Positions 1-54,406 of a DNA stretch of 64,000 nt are shown here, one piece after another (the first letter of the stretch is position 1; each line of letters opens with the position of its first letter). The translations under genes were made by a program, and so were the position numbers. Below the pieces are notes generated by a model, which searched no databases, had not been told where the DNA came from, and saw only the letters and a program-made list of their open reading frames with translations. The DNA comes from Selenomonas ruminantium subsp. ruminantium ATCC 12561. Lineage in GTDB: Bacteria > Bacillota > Negativicutes > Selenomonadales > Selenomonadaceae. Location of the stretch: contig NZ_AUJE01000001.1 in the NCBI RefSeq assembly GCF_000424065.1, forward strand, positions 1 through 64,000, in the 5' to 3' direction.

Positions 1-2
1 AT

Positions 3-251
3 CACAAATTGGAAAAACAGGGAATGACCCAAAGTATGTCCCGTGTAGCCCACTGCATTGACAACGGGCCTATGGAAGGATTCTGGGGCATCCTAAAGCG
101 AGAGATGTACTACGGCAAACGATTTACCAGCAAACAGAATCTAATAGATTCGATTGAAAACTACATTCAGTATTACAACTACAAGCGTGTGCAACGTAAT
201 CTCGGAATCCTAACACCGATAGAGAAACACACCTTGTATTTAGCCGCATAA
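3..251 (+). pseudogene. IS3-family transposase (OrfB), C-terminal part, cut by window edge
   Basis: This is the C-terminal end of an integrase-type (DDE) transposase of the IS3 family. The frame is open to the left edge, so the gene starts outside the window. The visible part carries the family signature: a QSMSR stretch, then CIDNGPMEGFWGILKREM, which holds the last catalytic Glu region (family form DNAPMESFFGxLK), then the conserved N-Y-I-x-Y-Y-N tail and a LGxLTPIE-like end. About 83 residues are visible. Whether the complete element is intact cannot be judged from here. Confidence 0.9.
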
Positions 252-300
252 AAAGACCGGCAGACGAATCTACCGGCCTAAGAAATCTTATAATTTTTTA

Positions 301-326
301 TTGTCCTCTTGACGGGGAGCGGTTCA
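301..326. repeat. Probable right terminal end of the IS3-family element
   Basis: About 50 bases after the transposase stop lies a GC-rich stretch (TTGACGGGGAGCGGTTCA) ending in CA. IS3-family ends read TG...CA with a GC-rich inner part. The left end is outside the window, so the inverted repeat could not be compared. A small hairpin (ACCGGCAGACG...CTACCGG) sits between the stop and this end. Confidence 0.5.
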
Positions 327-352
327 TACAGCCCGTGTAATGGTTGTGATTC

Positions 353-715
353 TTATTGAATCAGATTGTCAGCCTGACCGATGTCTGCTGACCAGTGGCG
401 GCGTGGTGGTGGATAGTGGCGGCGTGGTGGTGGTGGTGGCGGCCGATGGTAGCGGCGGCGTTCCATTTCCCGGCGGCGGCGTTCTCTTTCCCACCGTTCA
501 CGTTCAATGCGGCGGCGTTCAGCCGGGGAGAGTTTCTCATCAATGGCAAAATCCTCAATGCCAATGGAGAAATCATAGGTTTGCATCTGCCCCGGAATCG
601 TTACGGAGAAATCGGCGGCTTGTGGTGCTGTAGCTGCTTCTGTGGTTCCCGGCATAAAGCCGAAAGCGCTGCAAATCATGGCAGCTATAGCCAGTTTTTT
701 CCATAGGTTCGGCAT
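353..715 (-). CDS. Exported Arg/Pro-rich small protein, unknown function
   Basis: A predicted exported protein of 120 residues. The start at 715 is chosen because an AGGAAGGGG Shine-Dalgarno lies just upstream; a longer frame to 748 would swallow it. Residues 1-28 form a signal peptide (PNLWKKLAIAAMICSAFGFMP, then a TEA-A cleavage-like site). A short ordered stretch follows (FSVTIPGQMQTYDFSIGIEDFAI). The last 50 residues are extremely basic: alternating Arg/Glu (ERRRIERERWERERRRR), then a proline run and RRH/RRHW motifs. This resembles an acid/base zipper or wall-binding tail, but I recognise no family. It lies next to an IS end and is transcribed towards it. Confidence 0.7.
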   Translation of the reverse strand: MPNLWKKLAIAAMICSAFGFMPGTTEAATAPQAADFSVTIPGQMQTYDFSIGIEDFAIDEKLSPAERRRIERERWERERRRREMERRRYHRPPPPPPRRHYPPPRRHWSADIGQADNLIQ

Positions 716-966
716 AATGTTCAACCCCTTCCTAGGTAATGAAGACATTGTGCTAAAACGGTTGATTTTTCATAAGACAAATCCTTATGGTACTATTATA
801 ATAAATAAAATAGAATAGTGCAATAATTTACATTGTTCCAATAATGTATACTTGAAATGTACATTGTTTTTCTGTGAAAAATCATAACTGCAGCAGGGAA
901 AAGTGTTATCGGGGGAGAATTTACAGCAATACAGAGCAGGTGCGGAACTGAGGAAGGGGTATAACT

Positions 967-2175
967 ATGAAATTCCGAGAAGTAGCGGCTGCTGGTTTGG
1001 CAGTCTTGCTTGTGTTGATTGCCTGGAATGGAGAGGCTTCCCGCCATCAATACGCTGAACGGCCGCTCAGCAGTCATTTGATGAAACCATGGCCGGTGGA
1101 AACACAGGATTCTGGTGGTGTGCTGCTCTTTTCCGACAGTCCGGAATATGTGAAGGAACATGGTATTTTGTATCGCGATGTGGTGCAGGGGGAGGCACGG
1201 ATATTTTATTATCATGTCAATATGACTGCACAGCCTGGTAGATTGGCTGTGGTACTGGAGAATCTGGGGGCGAAAAGCACAACAGTAGTCATTACCCGGG
1301 GGGCGATGTCGATACCGAGTACGACGTATTTTGAAGTTGGCAAGGGGGTGGAAATTGGCTATATGCGCATGCCGCAGCCGGAGAAGAAGGTTTTTTTGGA
1401 AGCAGCAAGTGGTAAGCTTCTTCATCCGGGCATGGACGATTTGCTGGAGCCACGGAATCTGATGTCGGGTATGTATGATTTTAGAACCAGTGAGCGTGTG
1501 CAGGTGTCTGTTGTATTTTGCCCCGCTAATGCGGATCCGGTGAGTTTTGTCCGTAATGCCAAGGTACTGCCCAAGGATAAGGAAGCATTGCGGGGGACTT
1601 TTACGGGAATGAATCGCACGGTAAAAGCCAAGCGACCGTATGACCCGGAAAAAGATGGCATGGTGTATATCTCGATTGGGGATAATCGGTATGATGCCTA
1701 TAAACAGGGGGTTGATGCTACCGATGGCAGCACGGCGCTTAACTATGGCAATTACGGCATTCTTTATCGTTATGAACTGCCGCTGCGGGGAAAAAATCCG
1801 ACCTGCATGATGCTTACTCCCTTGGGAGGGCCCTATAGCGGGGCTGTGCGGGTAGAAACGGGCAGGAAGGAAGATCGTCTGGTACATACGCCTCGGGGGC
1901 AATTGTTCTTTGGCGAGGTTACGCCACCGGATTTAGAGGCAGATATTGGCCGCGATATACTGTTGACGGAGAATTTCGAACTGACGAATATTGGCAATTT
2001 CAATGCCTATAAGCGGTTTGCTCTGGAGTATTCACCACCGGGCGCATCGAATATGCCTGTACTGCTTATTTTGGCACCGAGCAGGGCGCGGCGCAGTATG
2101 TTTGACCGGCAGCGGCGTGGCACCATTGTCCATCGAGAAAGGTCTTTACACCGTAATAGAAGTGGGCTATACTAA
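967..2175 (+). CDS. Exported protein of unknown function, 3' end possibly frameshifted
   Basis: A 402-residue predicted exported protein with a strong AGGAAGGGG ribosome site 9 bases before the ATG. Residues 1-24 form a signal peptide (AAAGLAVLLVLIAW). The body is a beta-rich sequence without a family I know. The last 30 residues (from about 367) are unusually basic (SRARRSMFDRQRRG) and look out of frame. Adding one T in the run at 2069-2072 gives FGTEQGAAQYV, and adding one T at 2101-2103 then gives TGSGVAPLSIEKGLYTVIEV, both natural-looking protein. The gene may therefore be a recent pseudogene or carry homopolymer sequence errors. Confidence 0.7.
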   Translation: MKFREVAAAGLAVLLVLIAWNGEASRHQYAERPLSSHLMKPWPVETQDSGGVLLFSDSPEYVKEHGILYRDVVQGEARIFYYHVNMTAQPGRLAVVLENLGAKSTTVVITRGAMSIPSTTYFEVGKGVEIGYMRMPQPEKKVFLEAASGKLLHPGMDDLLEPRNLMSGMYDFRTSERVQVSVVFCPANADPVSFVRNAKVLPKDKEALRGTFTGMNRTVKAKRPYDPEKDGMVYISIGDNRYDAYKQGVDATDGSTALNYGNYGILYRYELPLRGKNPTCMMLTPLGGPYSGAVRVETGRKEDRLVHTPRGQLFFGEVTPPDLEADIGRDILLTENFELTNIGNFNAYKRFALEYSPPGASNMPVLLILAPSRARRSMFDRQRRGTIVHRERSLHRNRSGLY

Positions 2176-2234
2176 TCTAAAGAGTCTGATATTTCAGTTT
2201 TTGTTTTGGCAGTTTGTTCGTGAGGAGGGATTTT

Positions 2235-2849
2235 ATGTTTCGCAAGTTGTTTTCCGCACTGGTGCTGGGCTTGATTATGATCTTGTCCGTGAATGCCTGT
2301 CAGGCGGGTACTTTCCAGAAGCTGTACGAGATACGGCTTTCGTCGGCCAAGTTGGGTTCAGACCAAGCTTGGTCCAGGACGTTTAACACTATGGACGGGG
2401 ATTTGAAGCTGCAATTTCGGCGTCTGGCCGGGGAGGGCGATGCCAAGCGCTTCCATCTTACGGTAAAGCTGGGGAAAAAATACGTGTTTAAGAAACATTT
2501 CCCGGAGGTTGAGGGCGGTTACTCCATTATGGTCATTAAGGATACGTCTACCAGTCGTATGTTCTATGCCGTGCAGTCCATTGATCAGGCCTATCTGTAT
2601 GGTTATGAAGGAGAAACGGCCAAGTTTGAAACCTATATCGACAGCGATAACTACTTGAATAAATATAATGGTGATTCGATTATTGCGGTGACGAAGGGGG
2701 GCGACTTGATTCTGGCCTTTGAACCGCCTTATGCCTCCCGTGTAGCACCAAATCAGCGCTATAGCTTCTTCTGGGATAATAATACAATCTGGTTTGCTTA
2801 TCGTGATTTGGGAACCGGCTATGGCCCCATCTATAACGAAAGCCAGTGA
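2235..2849 (+). CDS. Exported protein of unknown function
   Basis: A 204-residue predicted exported protein. The start at 2235 follows a GAGGAGGG Shine-Dalgarno at the proper distance; a TTG 21 bases earlier would overlap it. Residues 1-25 form a signal peptide (KLFSALVLGLIMILSVNACQA). The mature part is rich in aromatic and charged residues and looks like a compact beta domain (YSFFWDNNTIWFAYRDLGTGYGP near the end). It follows the previous exported protein by about 60 bases and is probably co-transcribed with it. Function unknown. Confidence 0.75.
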   Translation: MFRKLFSALVLGLIMILSVNACQAGTFQKLYEIRLSSAKLGSDQAWSRTFNTMDGDLKLQFRRLAGEGDAKRFHLTVKLGKKYVFKKHFPEVEGGYSIMVIKDTSTSRMFYAVQSIDQAYLYGYEGETAKFETYIDSDNYLNKYNGDSIIAVTKGGDLILAFEPPYASRVAPNQRYSFFWDNNTIWFAYRDLGTGYGPIYNESQ

Positions 2850-2890
2850 TGAAGACTTGAGGCTGGGGGCAATAGTATGTTGAACAAGAA

Positions 2891-2934
2891 AGTCCTGTAT
2901 GAATCTTTTGACGGTGGAAGATTCATACAGGGCT
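2891..2934 (+). terminator. Intrinsic terminator after the exported-protein genes
   Basis: A 14-bp perfect stem (CCTGTATGAATCTT at 2894-2907 with its complement at 2918-2931), extended by a few more pairs on both sides. It is followed by a moderately T-rich stretch. Confidence 0.75.
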
Positions 2935-3010
2935 TTATCAATTTTGGGTAGGCTTTTTAGGCTTATTGTGCTAAAATGGAATCTAGTATGTAAGAAAGGC
3001 GGGAATCCTG

Positions 3011-3451
3011 ATGAAAATAACGATTGGCAGCGATCATGGTGCTGTCCAGCTCAAAGAAGAAGTGAAAATGGTTCTGAAGGAATACGGCGACGTTGAGGTA
3101 AAAGACGTGGGCACCTTCGGTACGGATTCGGTTGATTATCCCGATATTGCCGAAAAGGTCTGCGGCGATGTGGTAAGCGGCAAGGCGGATCGCGGCATTG
3201 TGCTCTGCGGCACGGGCATTGGCATTTCCATTGCCGCCAACAAGATTAAAGGCATTCGCTGCGCACTTTGCAACGATGTGTTCTCGGCCAAGATGTGCCG
3301 TCAGCACAATGATGCCAATGTTCTGGCTATGGGCGGCCGCGTAATGGGCTTTGGCCCTGCCGGCGAAATCGTCCGGGCCTTTGTGGAAGGCAAGTTTGAA
3401 GGCGGCCGTCATGAACGCCGGGTAAATAAAATCATGGCATTGGAAAAATAA
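3011..3451 (+). CDS. rpiB: Ribose-5-phosphate isomerase B
   Basis: Interconverts ribose 5-phosphate and ribulose 5-phosphate in the pentose phosphate pathway. Length (146 residues) and sequence match the RpiB/LacAB family: the N-terminal IGSDHGA phosphate-binding motif (Asp8, His9), the catalytic Cys66 in VLCGTGIGISIAANK, and the conserved RxxHNDANVLAMGGR block. It heads a probable run rpiB-glyA-upp-ychF, a grouping common in Firmicutes and Negativicutes. Confidence 0.96.
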   Translation: MKITIGSDHGAVQLKEEVKMVLKEYGDVEVKDVGTFGTDSVDYPDIAEKVCGDVVSGKADRGIVLCGTGIGISIAANKIKGIRCALCNDVFSAKMCRQHNDANVLAMGGRVMGFGPAGEIVRAFVEGKFEGGRHERRVNKIMALEK

Positions 3452-3533
3452 AAGCCAGGATTAAAGCAAGTAAGGTAGTGAAAGTTAGGTAAAGTTTTTT
3501 GGTCTGAGCTAATGGCTCAAAGGAGGTCTCTAC

Positions 3534-4787
3534 ATGAATCTAAAGGAAGTTCTGCAGCAGTCTGATCCGGAAATCGCCAAGTATGTCAATAGTGAGTTGA
3601 ACCGCCAGCGGGAGAAACTGGAGCTTATCGCTTCGGAAAATATTGTCAGTCCTGCTGTGCTCGCTGCTCAGGGCAGTGTGCTCACGAACAAGTATGCCGA
3701 AGGTTATCCCGGCAAAAGATATTATGGCGGCTGTGAATTCGTGGATGAAGTAGAGACGCTGGCCATTGAACGGGCGAAAAAACTCTTTGGTGCAGAGTAC
3801 GCCAATGTGCAGCCGCATTCCGGTGCCCAGGCCAACATGGCGGTGTTCTTTGCCCTGTTGCAGCCCGGTGACACGGTGATGGGCATGAACCTCAACGATG
3901 GCGGTCATCTGACTCATGGCTCGCCGGTCAATATGTCCGGCAAGTACTTCAAGATTGTGCCCTATGGCGTGGACAAGGAAACGGAAACCATCGACTATGA
4001 TGCGTTGGAGGCCCAGGCAAAGGAATGCAAGCCGAAGCTCATTGTGGCAGGAGCGTCTGCCTATGCACGTACGCTTGATTTCCCGCGACTGGCAGAAATC
4101 GCCCATGGTGTTGGCGCATACCTGATGGTGGATATCGCCCATATTGCCGGCCTTGTGGCGGCAGGTGAGCACCCAAGCCCGATTCCCTATGCCGATGTGG
4201 TCACGACAACGACCCACAAGACCCTGCGCGGCCCGCGTGGCGGCATGATTCTCTGTAAAGATGCAGAGTTTGGCAAGCAGTTCAATAAGGCGGTATTCCC
4301 CGGCATTCAGGGCGGGCCTTTGATGCACGTTATCGCTGCTAAGGCGGTGGCTTTGGGCGAAGCGTTGAAACCTGAGTTCAAGGAATATGCCAAACAGGTG
4401 GTTAAAAATGCGGCAGTTCTGGCCAAGACTTTGCAGGAGGAAGGCTTCCGCATCGTGTCCGGTGGTACGGACAATCATCTGATGCTGGTTGACCTTACGA
4501 ATAAGGGGATTACGGGTAAGACAGCACAGACGGTGCTCGATGAAGTGAACATCACCGCCAACCGCAATACCATTCCGTTCGAACCATTGTCGCCCTTTGT
4601 GACCAGTGGCCTGCGCCTGGGGACACCTGCCCTCACTACCCGGGGCTTTAAGGAAGCCGACTTGCAGGAAGTCGGCAAAATCATCGCTCTTGTTCTGAGC
4701 GATGCAGAAAATGAGGAAAAGAAAGCCGAAGCACGGGAGCGTGTAGCTGCCCTGTGCAAGAAATATCCGCTCTATGCAGAGATGTAA
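3534..4787 (+). CDS. glyA: Serine hydroxymethyltransferase
   Basis: PLP enzyme that converts serine and tetrahydrofolate to glycine and methylene-tetrahydrofolate, the main source of one-carbon units. It is 417 residues, normal for the family. Signatures are [11 protein letters not shown] near the N-terminus, the cofactor-binding Lys229 in [14 protein letters not shown], and the [12 protein letters not shown] block. An AAAGGAGG site precedes the ATG. A short hairpin (TGAGC/GCTCA) sits just before the ribosome site. Upp starts 12 bases after the stop. Confidence 0.97.
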
Positions 4788-17324: not shown

Positions 17325-17348
17325 GCAATATCGTTCGAGGTAAAAGGC

Positions 17349-17427
17349 GCGAGCCACAGTATAATACTTTTTCTTCGCTGAGACAAGCTTGTCAAACGCT
17401 GCGAAAAAGCATCATACTGTGGCTCGC
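17349..17427. repeat. Hairpin element A1
   Basis: First of three tandem elements. The outer arms are a perfect 14-bp pair (GCGAGCCACAGTAT / ATACTGTGGCTCGC). Inside are a CTTTTTC/GAAAAAG pair, then TTCGC/GCGAA around a perfect inner palindrome GACAAGCTTGTC. CTTAGT follows immediately. The outer arms differ from those of A2 and A3, while the core is shared. Confidence 0.9.
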
Positions 17428-17482
17428 TTAGTGTGCGTTTATATGCGTGCTTGGCGATGGGTGAAGTTCGCTATATAAAGAC

Positions 17483-17561
17483 GCCGGGGGTACTGGTAAT
17501 ATTTTCCTTCGCTGAGACAGGCTTGTCAAACGCTGCGGAAAACATCACCAGTACCCCCGGC
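17483..17561. repeat. Hairpin element A2
   Basis: Second element. The outer arms are a perfect 15-bp pair (GCCGGGGGTACTGGT / ACCAGTACCCCCGGC). The inner core is nearly identical to A1 (TTCGCTGAGACAGGCTTG, then TCAAACGCTGCGGAAAA), and CTTAGT follows the right arm. Confidence 0.9.
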
Positions 17562-17594
17562 TTAGTGCTTAGATTACAGCAGATATGCTAAGAC

Positions 17595-17676
17595 GCCCGC
17601 GGGACTGGTAATATTTTTCCTTCGCCATAGACAGGCTTGTCAAAAGCTGCGGAAAAACATCACCAGTCCCACGGGC
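17595..17676. repeat. Hairpin element A3
   Basis: Third element. The outer arms are 15 bp with one mismatch (GCCCGCGGGACTGGT / ACCAGTCCCACGGGC). The core is again shared (CCTTCGCCATAGACAGG..TTGTCAAAAGCTGCGGAAAAA), and CTTAGT follows. It ends 20 bases before the stop of the convergent transporter gene. Confidence 0.9.
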
Positions 17677-17696
17677 TTAGTTCGTCTTATGCGAGA

Positions 17697-42263: not shown

Positions 42264-42448
42264 AAAGAAGGGGTCCAAACTGCCGCTGCCTTAAATGCCC
42301 AAAACCTGCGATCAGCAGGTGGGTGCCCTAAGTTTAGCTTCCGCGAGACGCCGAGGCGAACTTCCACTAAAATCAAATCAGGCTCCCTGTAAAAAATGTA
42401 GGTTGGACATTTCAAAAGCCCGCGCACACCCCAGGCTTATCCTTCTTT
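42264..42448 (-). ncRNA. ssrS: 6S RNA
   Basis: A long, rod-like RNA of about 185 nt that binds RNA polymerase holoenzyme and adjusts transcription in stationary phase. Evidence: an exact closing stem (AAAGAAGG at the 5' end, CCTTCTTT at the 3' end); the family-like 5' stretch CCTGGGGTGTGCGCGGG; a 3' half with CACCTGCTGATCGCAGGTTT and AAGGCAGCGGCA; and a TATACT -10 (42452-42457 on the minus strand) placed to start at the 5' end. Identified from memory of the family pattern; a covariance search would confirm it. Confidence 0.8.
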
Positions 42449-46198: not shown

Positions 46199-46214
46199 CG
46201 AAAAAACGTTATTC

Positions 46215-46297
46215 CTACTTCCCTACGTTGGCATTATCCAAATCAGGTGCGGTCGAAGTGCATAACTTCCTCTCAGCCCGTCTGCGAGCTCCCGTGT
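46215..46297 (-). promoter_or_regulatory. TPP riboswitch (thiM operon)
   Basis: Thi-box aptamer with the conserved blocks ACGGGCTGAGAGGAAG and CACTTCGACCGCACCTGA, TTTGGATAATGCCAACG and TAGGGAAG. Nearly the same sequence as the thiC aptamer at 57376-57456; the variable loop differs (TTATG versus TTGGG). Confidence 0.95.
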
Positions 46298-46494
46298 ATG
46301 TGATTATATCTTTAGTTTAGCGGTCAAGGATAGTTTTGTCAAATAAATGTGGTTATTAATAAAGTAAATATCTTCTGTTTTGCTTGTCTTGATAATATTG
46401 CCTTTCGGTGCTATAATCGGGGCATAGAGAAGCGTATGACAAGGGGAAACGCCATTCAGGTCGTTGCCCCTTTGTCGTTTGTGGAGGGATATTT

Positions 46495-51806: not shown

Positions 51807-52805
51807 ATGAAAATTGTATCCTGGAATACGACCAACAATTGCAATATGTACTGCGCCCATTGCTACCGTGATGCAGGCTGCAAGGCAGAAGATGAACTCT
51901 CCACGAAGGAGGCGAAAAAGCTCCTGCGGGAAATTGCCAAGGCCGGTTTCAAAATCATGATTTTTTCCGGCGGCGAACCATTGACCCGTCCGGATATTGT
52001 GGAGCTTGTGAAATATGCTTCTGATTTGGGGCTTTTCCCGGTGTTCGGCACCAACGGCACGCTGATTACGCTCGAAATGGCCAAAGCCTTGAAAGAGGCT
52101 GGAGCTCGCGGCATGGGCATTTCGCTGGATTCGCTGGACAAGGAAAAGCACGACAAATTCCGCGCCTTCCCCGGTGGCTGGGATGGCGCGGTACAGGGCA
52201 TGAAGAACTGCCGCGAAGTGGGGCTGCCCTTCCAGATTCATACGACGGTGATGGATTGGAATCAGCAGGAATTGGAAGCGATGACGGATTTTGCCGTGGA
52301 AATCGGTGCCAAAGCCCACCATTTCTTCTTCCTGGTGCCGACCGGCAGAGCCGCGACGATTGAGGAAGAATCCCTGCGGGCGGAGCAGTATGAAGATGTG
52401 CTGACCCGCATTATGAAGAAACAGCAGGAAGTGGATATTGAATTAAAGCCGACCTGTGCGCCACAGTTCTTGCGCATTGCTGACCAGTTGGGCATCAAGA
52501 CGCGATTCCATCGTGGCTGTCTGGCAGGCATTAGCTATTGCATCATCAGCCCGCGGGGTAAGGTACAGCCCTGTGCTTACCTCAATATGGAATTGGGCGA
52601 TGTGCATGATACGCCCTTTGATGAAATCTGGAATAACAGCGAAGTGCTGAAGAAACTGCGTACGCTGGAGTATAGCGGTGGGTGCGGCAGCTGCAATTAC
52701 AAAGGTGTCTGCGGCGGGTGCCGGGCCAGAGCGGCTTATTACCATGGCGGGGACTATATGGCGGAGGAGCCTTGGTGTCTCTATCATGGACGCAGAGGCG
52801 AATAA
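51807..52805 (+). CDS. nirJ2: Radical SAM/SPASM protein NirJ2 (AhbD-like)
   Basis: 332 residues. Radical SAM motif CNMYCAHC, IMIFSGGEPLTRPDIV and GTNGTLIT are present, with a SPASM domain (CLAGISYCIISPRGKVQPC; CGSCNYKGVCGGCRARA). It matches NirJ2/AhbD, which converts the two propionates of Fe-coproporphyrin III to vinyls to make heme. Together with nirJ1 this suggests an alternative, oxygen-independent heme pathway; the siroheme genes are not in the window. Confidence 0.85.
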   Translation: MKIVSWNTTNNCNMYCAHCYRDAGCKAEDELSTKEAKKLLREIAKAGFKIMIFSGGEPLTRPDIVELVKYASDLGLFPVFGTNGTLITLEMAKALKEAGARGMGISLDSLDKEKHDKFRAFPGGWDGAVQGMKNCREVGLPFQIHTTVMDWNQQELEAMTDFAVEIGAKAHHFFFLVPTGRAATIEEESLRAEQYEDVLTRIMKKQQEVDIELKPTCAPQFLRIADQLGIKTRFHRGCLAGISYCIISPRGKVQPCAYLNMELGDVHDTPFDEIWNNSEVLKKLRTLEYSGGCGSCNYKGVCGGCRARAAYYHGGDYMAEEPWCLYHGRRGE

Positions 52806-52836
52806 GAAGGATTACCACCGTGGGTTCGTGGTAGTC

Positions 52837-53037
52837 GGGCGGGGCCGTCAGCATTGCCACGATTCCGCTTAGCCCCTTTGCTAAAATATTTTTTTGCCTT
52901 TTATATAACGGGAAACGTCTAAACTCACTGCGTTCAAACAAAGACGTTTCCCGTTATTTTTAGTGGTATGGGCAAAAAAATATTTCTTAACGCCAAGGGG
53001 CGAACGCTCCACTGCGGCAATGCTGACGGCCCCGCCC
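52837..53037. repeat. Nested palindrome B1
   Basis: A 201-base element of nested pairs. The outer arms are 22 bp and perfect (52837-52858 with 53016-53037); the middle arms are 15 bp and perfect (AAATATTTTTTTGCC at 52884-52898 with 52971-52985); the inner arms are 14 bp and perfect (AACGGGAAACGTCT at 52907-52920 with 52942-52955). The core contains AACTCACTGCGTTCAAACA. A small TACCAC/GTGGTA hairpin precedes it at 52813. No frame here looks like a gene. Confidence 0.92.
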
Positions 53038-53193
53038 TGAGTTACTTACGCATCGGTGCCCTCGCGCTGGTTGACATCGGCGTGGTGGAGCGTGCCTATT
53101 TATAAATGTGTGGACAAATGAAGAAAATGTCAGTAGGTTGCAGGATTGCAATGTTGAGGGGGTGAACCCAAAATCAGCAGAGCAGCAGGCACT

Positions 53194-53402
53194 AAGGCGG
53201 AGCGGCCGGGAACTGGCCACAGCGAAGCGTATGGCCGCTGGCGTAAAGAAAATCATTTTTGCCCACCACAAGAAAAAACGCATAGCATCTACTGTTTGAA
53301 CGCAGTGAGTTTAGATGCTATGCGTTTTATAAGAGGCAAAAATGATTTTTAGCCAGCGGTCTTAGCGTAGTCGTGGCCAGTTCCCGGCCGCTCCGCCGCC
53401 TT
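53194..53402. repeat. Nested palindrome B2, core inverted relative to B1
   Basis: A 209-base element with the same plan as B1. Outer arms of 25 bp, perfect (53196-53220 with 53373-53397); middle arms CCGCTGGC and AAAATCATTTTTGCC (53235-53263 with 53335-53359); inner arms of 17 bp, perfect (53275-53291 with 53312-53328). The core holds the same 19 bases as B1 on the opposite strand. Arm sequences differ from B1. The 156-base spacer between B1 and B2 holds nothing recognised. Confidence 0.92.
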
Positions 53403-53442: not shown

Positions 53443-54225
53443 TTACGTATTCATAATCGCATCAACGGACTTAATGCACGCATTGCGCAATCCGTATTCT
53501 TCGAGTGCCGTAACCCCGCGGATGGTAGTCCCCGCCGGACTGCAAACATTATCTTTGAGCACGCCGGGATGGGTGCCAGTTGCGAGCTGGAGTTTGGCCG
53601 AGCCGAGCACCATTTGGGAAATCAGCTTATAGGCATCTTCGCGTTTTAAGCCGTATTTTACTGCCGCATCCCCATAGGCCTCGATAAAGAGGTCTACAAA
53701 GGCCGGGCCGCAGCCGGTGACGGTGCCGCCGATGCCCATGAGGTGACTGGGCAGTTCCTGTACCAAACCCACGGCGGCAAATAGTTTCTTGACTTCTGCG
53801 TGTTCCTCTGGCGTAAGGGTATTGCGCTCCTCAAAGAGCAGTACCCCTTCACCGACCATAGCCGGGGTGTTGGGCATGATGAATTGCAGGCGGACACCTG
53901 CGGGCAGGGCCTTTTCATAGCGGGCAAAGTCCCAGCCGGCGGCGATGGAGATTAGGGCTTTGCCCTTTAATTTATCGCCAAGCTTTGCCAGGACGCTTTC
54001 AATCTGGTAGGGTTTGCAGGCCATTACCAATGTATCACAGGTATCTGCCAGTTCCTGTACGGTCTTTACTGCGGTAAAGCCGATAGCGGCGGCGTTTTTG
54101 GCCAGTTTTTCCTGGTTGGGGGCAAAGGCATAGACGTTATCCTTGGCGATGGCGCCTGCGTTAATAAAACCTGCGGCGAGTGCCTGTGCCATATTTCCCA
54201 TGCCGATAAATCCGAGTTTTTCCAT
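53443..54225 (-). CDS. proC: Pyrroline-5-carboxylate reductase
   Basis: Last step of proline synthesis, NAD(P)H-dependent. 260 residues. Marks: LGFIGMGNMAQALAAGFI, the VMACKPYQIESVL block, FIMPNTPAMVGEG, and the C-terminal signature with HPGVLKDNVCSPAGTTIRG. The start at 54225 (ATGATG) follows AGGAGG; a longer frame is not supported. Confidence 0.96.
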   Translation of the reverse strand: MEKLGFIGMGNMAQALAAGFINAGAIAKDNVYAFAPNQEKLAKNAAAIGFTAVKTVQELADTCDTLVMACKPYQIESVLAKLGDKLKGKALISIAAGWDFARYEKALPAGVRLQFIMPNTPAMVGEGVLLFEERNTLTPEEHAEVKKLFAAVGLVQELPSHLMGIGGTVTGCGPAFVDLFIEAYGDAAVKYGLKREDAYKLISQMVLGSAKLQLATGTHPGVLKDNVCSPAGTTIRGVTALEEYGLRNACIKSVDAIMNT

Positions 54226-54406
54226 CATGTACCTCCTGCAATATATATTGAAGTTTTGACGTAAATCACTGCCCCTATTGTAACATAAAATCAGAACAGA
54301 CAACGCGATTGCAGAAAAAATTTCTGGCAGGTGTTGTTTATTTTTGGCGGTGCGTTATAATAAGATAGCATTTTGACTTTGGCGTAAGTATATTGAGGTG
54401 AATAGA

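Follow-up and report, generated by a model that had tools for sequence, protein, structure and literature searches.

Two long nested hairpins, inverted relative to each other between nirJ2 and proC of Selenomonas ruminantium subsp. ruminantium ATCC 12561, are copies of a dispersed, non-coding repeat of ~190 nt that is spread within bacterial genomes. The main signal is pairing that is kept between totally different arms. We consider it slightly more probable than otherwise that these hairpins, B1 and B2, represent a non-autonomous mobile palindromic repeat of REPIN- or MITE-like kind, recognised by its structure and often retained at the 3′ ends of genes.

Two inverted hairpins between convergent genes

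Both hairpins lie in the first 64,000 nucleotides of contig NZ_AUJE01000001.1 (the window; Table 1). The original prediction described nested perfect arms, and every arm pair is exact, with two corrections: the inner arm of B1 measures 16 bp rather than 14 bp, and the outer arm of B2 ends at 53397, not at 53402. The 19-base core reported to be identical on opposite strands is so (52922–52940, plus; 53293–53311, minus), beyond chance: 100 dinucleotide shuffles of the window gave no match, even with three mismatches. We call the folding strand, complementary to that core, F and the core strand C. The fold z-scores are −13.6 and −14.0, with none of 200 shuffles equally good, and a covariance model built on 40 copies (R1, from alignment A1) matches B1 at 52835–53023 (minus, 163 bits) and B2 at 53211–53400 (plus, 160 bits). 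On F, the apical loop of B1 comprises an R–Y pair, a C–G pair and a GNA triloop. The stop codon of nirJ2 lies 31 bases ahead of B1, and that of proC 45 bases from the outer arm of B2.

Table 1. Features of the hairpin pair and its surroundings (window positions)
Feature	Position	Strand	Remarks
Neighbour NirJ2-type radical SAM protein (nirJ2)	51807..52805	+	TIGR04055, 616 bits
B1 short outer hairpin/terminal sequence	52812..52833	+	TTACCACC...TTCGTGGTA
Element copy B1, nested hairpin	52837..53037	-	Folding strand F = minus; arms exact
B1 outer arms	52837-52858/53016-53037		22 bp, exact
B1 middle arms	52884-52898/52971-52985		15 bp, exact
B1 inner arms	52905-52920/52942-52957		16 bp, exact
B1 apical loop, core (C) strand	52921..52940	+	On F = TGTTTGAACGCAGTGAGTTT
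Non-coding spacer between the two inverted hairpins	53038..53195
Element copy B2, nested hairpin	53196..53397	+	Folding strand F = plus; arms exact
B2 outer arms	53196-53220/53373-53397		25 bp, exact
B2 middle arms	53249-53263/53335-53349		15 bp, exact
B2 inner arms	53275-53291/53312-53328		17 bp, exact
B2 apical loop	53293..53312	-	Same 20 bases as B1, opposite strand
Neighbour proC, convergent	53443..54303	-	TIGR00112, 253 bits
Three tandem short hairpins	17343..17681	-	Different arms, common core near CGCAGCGTTTGACAAGCYTGTCTCAGCGAAG; between convergent ORFs

A sequence similar to the terminal sequence beside B1 ends the common stretch of two related copies in another genome of the genus (L331 and L333 of G010). 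Far from the pair, the three short hairpins at 17343–17681 look like mini versions of the element with the middle and inner stems deleted; two of the three score 29.6 and 24.1 bits in the covariance model, and two have 25-nt arms that are 92% complementary.

The element was originally said to have no described counterpart, and we found none either. No Rfam family reaches its gathering score at either hairpin of the window, or at any point of 18 loci from other taxa; elsewhere in the window, Rfam identifies 6S RNA (42268–42440, minus) and a TPP riboswitch (46202–46305, minus). In literature outside subscription journals, and judged by titles and abstracts, the papers listed by searches with the core, its complement or the companion-hairpin sequence were unrelated, and those listed by searches by description dealt with REPs and MITEs, none of them with such an element.

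Covariation and conserved loops

Of the 47 consensus pairs in the alignment of 40 copies, 33 show substitutions in both partners that preserve pairing. Paired cells make up 92.1%, against 72.2% in shuffles, and both-side changes number 350, against 101 in shuffles; sliding the partners by 1–3 columns abolishes the signal, with 38–52% of cells paired. None of 500 shuffles matched any of the five observed covariation measures, in a comparison that ignores relatedness and uses a structure derived from the same alignment. We argue that neither relatedness nor the alignment is the cause of the covariation, because many copies have no arm similarity at all.

The predicted layout of F runs from an outer stem through a purine-rich internal loop around GNA, a middle stem, a conserved asymmetric loop (GGCGTTAAGAAA/TTTTAGC) and an inner stem to a final loop that contains a C(GNA)G triloop. 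The core originally singled out, identical in B1 and B2, is not the whole conserved part: besides 5′-TGTYTGARCGNAGYGAGTTT in the apical loop, the conserved unpaired letters of F include AGCGT, which adjoins a GNA-like triplet within the outer internal loop, as well as GGCGTTAAGAAA opposite TTTTAGC. Complementarity between the apical R and Y holds for 257 of 259 copies, collected with search patterns that admitted all four R/Y combinations, while N of the triloop is free and ANA replaces GNA in 7 copies. The sequence d(GCGNAGC) is unusually stable as DNA, and GNA triloops exist in RNA too. As an alternative fold, we considered separate mini-hairpins flanking the outer internal loop and rejected them in favour of cross-strand pairing, since columns 23–24 covary with columns 182–183.

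The complementary strand is kept foldable

Single mismatches within stems, counted with G–U pairing switched off, agree in direction in three groups of copies. Read on the core strand, A·C outnumbers G·T by 93:28 in 82 Selenomonas copies, by 65:19 in 125 copies from wide scans and by 39:9 in 60 copies from other Firmicutes, and T·C outnumbers G·A by 77:6, 77:11 and 18:0, respectively. Conserved positions could inflate such raw counts, so we also capped them at two per position, and the A·C excess persists (60:24, 56:18 and 29:9), as it does when counted per element (45 versus 8, 42 versus 9 and 28 versus 5). Because A·C and T·C on the core strand read G·T and G·A on F, F is the strand kept foldable; p-values for these counts are too small because the copies are related. 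A strand-biased mutation process is a possible source of the A·C excess, but leaves the T·C excess unexplained. Folding energies, too, favour F over the core strand, for 31 of 40 copies with RNA parameters and for 27 of 40 with DNA parameters.

Copies in this genome and in the genus

The original prediction hinged on the core being present elsewhere. The motif AAACTCRCTNCGYTCARAC has 18 exact matches in the whole genome, against 0 for the reversed control. With up to two mismatches, the core has 24 matches, 23 of them within hairpins (at L023 and L024 with the inner stem only; L022 lacks a fold); loose matches alone prove little, because the reversed core pattern matches 11 times at the same threshold. 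Model R1 finds 35 matches, 10 of which are the opposite strand of the same palindromes, and these resolve into 25 distinct sites, 22 of them full length.

Among 22 genomes of the genus, G007 alone gives no match to the model; the other 21 have between 2 and 57 raw matches each. As palindromes can be counted on both strands, the counts for other genomes are upper bounds: 34 in G005, 33 in G009, 51 in G010, 50 in G011, 20 in G017, 48 in G018 and 57 in G019, with no overlapping matches seen in the last two, and with at least one copy in G010 counted twice through an overlap of contig ends. The single contig of G010 overlaps itself there (1–4400 and 2815200–2819500; 99.9% identity over 4.3 kb), and what appeared to be a recent duplication in that genome (L331/L332) is this overlap rather than transposition. 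The exact core looks patchy within the genus, but in most of the species that are negative for it the model detects relatives, in some cases with another loop. An even spacing of elements of ~1.6 kb in L100 and L133, with ordinary genes between them, was taken as coincidence.

Distribution across phyla

Exact copies of the loop motif have a patchy distribution that takes in Bacillota, Bacteroidota, Proteobacteria, Fusobacteria, Patescibacteria and other groups. Within the phylum of the window it is sporadic, occurring in 12 of 398 evenly drawn genomes (reversed control, 0). A scan of a species-genome collection with AAACTCRCTNCGYTCARACA returned at least 116 stretches, and the matches listed include Flavobacteriales, Parabacteroides, Sphingobacterium, Variovorax, Ralstonia, Luteimonas, Desulfuromonadales, Arcobacter, Lachnospiraceae, Fusobacterium, Nitrospirales, Magasanikbacteria and Gastranaerophilales. 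Folding was applied to 25 loci, and the folds listed are mostly long hairpins around the loop. A second sequence, RTAAS.AAA, precedes the motif at 25 of 114 of these sites and follows it at 2; among the cases listed, it usually sits in a short hairpin. Seven stretches with the motif come from viral contigs. Closely similar single hairpins occupy several sites in a Peptococcaceae metagenome assembly and in genome G262 (six copies compared), the latter with 36 motif matches. One Tenacibaculum stretch (L141, 376–998) carries three tandem copies of the whole unit with a period of ~300 bases.

Units with defined ends in a sister clade

In two genomes of a sister clade, G018 and G019, the copies (loop GTTCAAGCGNAGCGCGTTT) form many inverted pairs with spacers of ~90–100 bases, some of ~235, and belong to units that end in a 17-bp inverted repeat, AAATTACAGTTTRYMGG. 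At up to one mismatch there are 62 such ends in G018 and 82 in G019, against 0 and 1 for reversed controls. Matching ends lie ~570 bases apart, or ~330–360 in single-hairpin units, and full units at many sites in G019 and G009 are mostly 94–97% identical to the unit at L361 over ~570 bases. Terminal inverted repeats, one of the marks of a MITE, are thus present in G018 and G019; in the clade of the window, such unit ends are only weakly recognisable.

The flanks of the G018 and G019 units differ between sites or are part of another repeat. At L376, three relatives without the unit have the same left flank up to within 10 bases of where the unit begins (two were read), and at L361, two more distant relatives have both outer flanks with ~97 and 265 bases of other DNA between them. 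By eye, no target-site duplication is evident at unique flanks, and no clean empty site with both flanks was seen; plasmid records searched for empty sites gave partial matches in 3 and 2 records. Nor was any pair of ends seen to enclose a gene, as in a parent element, among the 62 and 82 ends listed in these assemblies, in which many contigs break inside units. Unit ends touch a host terminator at 5 of 24 unique-flank ends, two of which are one site in two genomes, compared with 6 of 159 shifted controls, and a few further, imperfect cases were seen by eye; the effect of insertion next to terminators is modest.

Two observations concern the surroundings of these units. At ~1420–1455 of L376 (G018 C11), a unit adjoins a palindrome, TGTTCCACGTGAAACA, which relatives have without the unit and which we take to resemble a ParB/parS site. 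Many units (L318, L358, L367, L370 and L372) lie inside another repeat that has ends AAAGGGRCTGTG and carries an inner terminator-like hairpin, GCCTCCATAAG; this surrounding repeat may represent the unit in its full form, or a nested MITE.

Gene ends and retention of the pair

In this genome, a gene ends 78–202 bases before the core, in the direction of the core strand, for 17 of 23 copies (by an ORF heuristic). At loci from other phyla, gene ends are enriched on both strands (65 and 55 of 98; random, 126 of 357), with no strong orientation of the element relative to genes.

The pair in the window is common to six species, at the same place and in the same orientation. An assembly artefact through hairpin read-through, raised as a possible refutation, is ruled out because the identical pair sits at the identical place in five other genomes. 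The same observation bears out the view that the long palindromes are maintained and lends no support to the alternative that they were recently made, and the inversion that was to be looked for is absent among the six species. Across the six species, the hairpins are 94.4 and 95.5% identical, comparable to nirJ2 (93.3%) and proC (91.3%), against 83.6% for the spacer (53038–53184) and 57.5% for the right flank. Among 147 pairs, 123 are invariant, 11 have changed on both sides, 4 remain paired after a change in one partner alone, and 9 have lost their pairing in one or more of the species. Blocks of differences affect both arms of the B2 inner stem in two species and of the B1 middle stem in one, as if stems had been exchanged between copies. 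A copy can also be lost: in G016 (L041), most of one hairpin is missing and part of an outer arm is kept.

Among relatives with a readable nirJ2 end and no pair, 13 of 14 have an ordinary terminator-like hairpin there (by eye). T runs directly after the inner stem are present on the core strand of B1, of B2 and of 19 of 40 copies, compared with 10 of 40 on F, and a terminator role is therefore possible for part of the copies. Our terminator scan called no terminator on the hairpins, a result that carries no weight as the scan is blind to loops longer than 8 bases.

Search for a partner enzyme

A search for a partner recombinase or transposase near other copies had been proposed, and none recurs: in an all-against-all comparison of 2065 ORFs near cores at 123 loci, no neighbouring protein is found at more than 6 loci, apart from reading frames of the element itself, which form the largest cluster (16 loci). 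The Y1 transposase domain (PF01797) has 10 matches in this genome, G000, one of them a full-length domain. It was not detected in the copy-rich genomes G005, G009, G010, G011, G017 and G018, where draft assemblies may miss a gene, and G007 has a Y1 match and no model match. None of the 17 stretches around Y1 matches contains the core at up to one mismatch; among the matches listed, one of them (L230) has a four-mismatch core in a fairly stable fold. We rejected a RAYT/Y1 partner on these grounds. In G059, which has a single exact core match, a Y1 fragment lies ~500 bases from it. Reverse transcriptase (PF00078), likewise rejected as a partner, went undetected in 13 of the 22 congeners, among them G000, G018 and G019.

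Alternative explanations

The most serious rival is a terminator role, in which the hairpins would be 3′-end elements made by the host. They would terminate transcription of the upstream genes or protect the 3′ ends of their mRNAs, acting in the sense RNA, which carries the core strand. The sense gene ends just before most copies of this genome, an ordinary terminator-like hairpin is found in nearly all relatives with a readable nirJ2 end and no pair, T runs follow the inner stem on the core strand, and the hairpins are conserved about equally to the neighbouring genes. A structure selected in sense RNA should nevertheless keep the sense strand foldable, and the mismatches, like the folding energies, mark the antisense strand instead; moreover, 21 of 40 copies lack the T run, terminators need no loop conserved across phyla, and closely similar multi-copy units exist. 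On balance we judge this explanation unlikely. Quite improbable, in our estimate, is that F acts as a structured RNA, either antisense or as a small RNA in its own right, and that a reverse transcriptase, for example, amplified it into a repeat. Covariation and tolerance of G·U would suit RNA as well as DNA. Against it, a promoter scan at the window locus performs at chance level (1 match; shuffles, 1.0), many copies in G040 have a terminator-like hairpin just 5′ of F (by eye), and more than half of the congeners gave no reverse transcriptase.

A REP or REPIN proper, typically tagged with GTAG or CGTC at one end and moved by a Y1 transposase of the RAYT or IS200 type, appears less probable still. 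REPs are, according to PMC3733652, dispersed non-coding palindromes, often inverted dimers and mostly behind genes; the element resembles them in all these respects, in its strand-specific fold and lack of coding capacity, and in the presence of Y1 matches in this genome. The same paper defines REPs as palindromes of 20–40 bp, whereas the element measures ~190 nt and has several helices, conserved internal loops and a loop motif found across phyla; six genomes with 20–51 model matches gave no Y1 transposase, G007 has Y1 and no copy, and 0 of 17 Y1 stretches hold the core at up to one mismatch. Very improbable, finally, is a neutral origin in which template switching at replication forks both creates the palindromes and repairs them: the arms are often perfect and change together, as this would predict, yet templated repair would erase the conserved asymmetric internal loops, and the loop motif and internal loops are common to unrelated arms and across species.

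A proposed mobile palindromic repeat at gene ends

Under our preferred reading of a structure-recognised mobile repeat, a unit would consist of one hairpin, or of two inverted hairpins with a short spacer, and would end in a short inverted repeat. It would be copied to sites beside gene 3′ ends, sometimes directly behind an intrinsic terminator, by an enzyme acting in trans that recognises F in its folded state, in which F is most likely single-stranded DNA. After insertion, copies such as the B1/B2 pair would pass on by vertical inheritance, and their persistence probably reflects a benefit of the hairpin to the host as a 3′-end or boundary structure. The analysis establishes the dispersal, the pairing maintained between changing arms, the strand preference, the unit ends with closely similar copies in the sister clade, and the retention in place; action on single-stranded DNA rather than RNA, the enzyme and the host function are inferred. 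Several points weigh against this reading: no partner enzyme was found near the cores or in the domain searches, no clear target-site duplication was seen by eye, the copies here are old and maintained, as those of a purely selfish element need not be, and the T runs on the core strand favour a terminator role in the sense direction. A bolder possibility, which we hold to be less likely than not, is a whole class of mobile elements in many phyla that are read solely through the fold of a single DNA strand built around C(GNA)G triloops. Such elements would be moved by an enzyme family that has so far been connected with no element, and would have been domesticated time and again at gene 3′ ends; their arms would be free to drift, since recognition would depend on nothing but the fold and a few unpaired bases.

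Several known systems offer parallels. Integron attC sites, which belong to cassette arrays with an IntI-type integrase, and the ends of IS200/IS605 elements enter recombination as folded single strands in which the stems vary and unpaired bases are conserved. The element shares this plan with both, but its copies are dispersed singles and inverted pairs, an arrangement that argues against attC. TnpA-REP processes REPs as folded single strands in vitro, according to PMC8266576, a mechanism which may serve as a model for the working of the element rather than as proof of kinship. TIRs, found beside TIRYT (Y1) transposases and described in PMC3733652 as long, inverted, partly self-complementary repeats that occur as singles, dimers and clusters, come close in form; TIRtrons and TIR families are defined by a flanking Y1 gene, of which we found none here, and this description sets them apart with some overlap possible. 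Like the bacterial MITEs RUP, NEMIS, ERIC and Nezha (PMC3733652), the element has no coding capacity, terminal inverted repeats in the range of 15–30 bp and a folding interior. Unlike in MITEs, that interior is a covarying multi-helix structure with a loop motif in many phyla, and we found neither a parent transposon nor a target duplication for the element.

If our reading is true, a family with a common loop motif, extending from Selenomonas to Bacteroidota and Burkholderiales, has been overlooked until now because the arms share no sequence, so that only structure-aware comparison reveals it. It would offer a tractable system for single-strand-directed mobility without a known Y1 enzyme and would be a source of spurious ORF calls, as the frames of the element are open in some genomes. 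The copies also provide natural covariation data on the upkeep of long palindromes in bacterial chromosomes.
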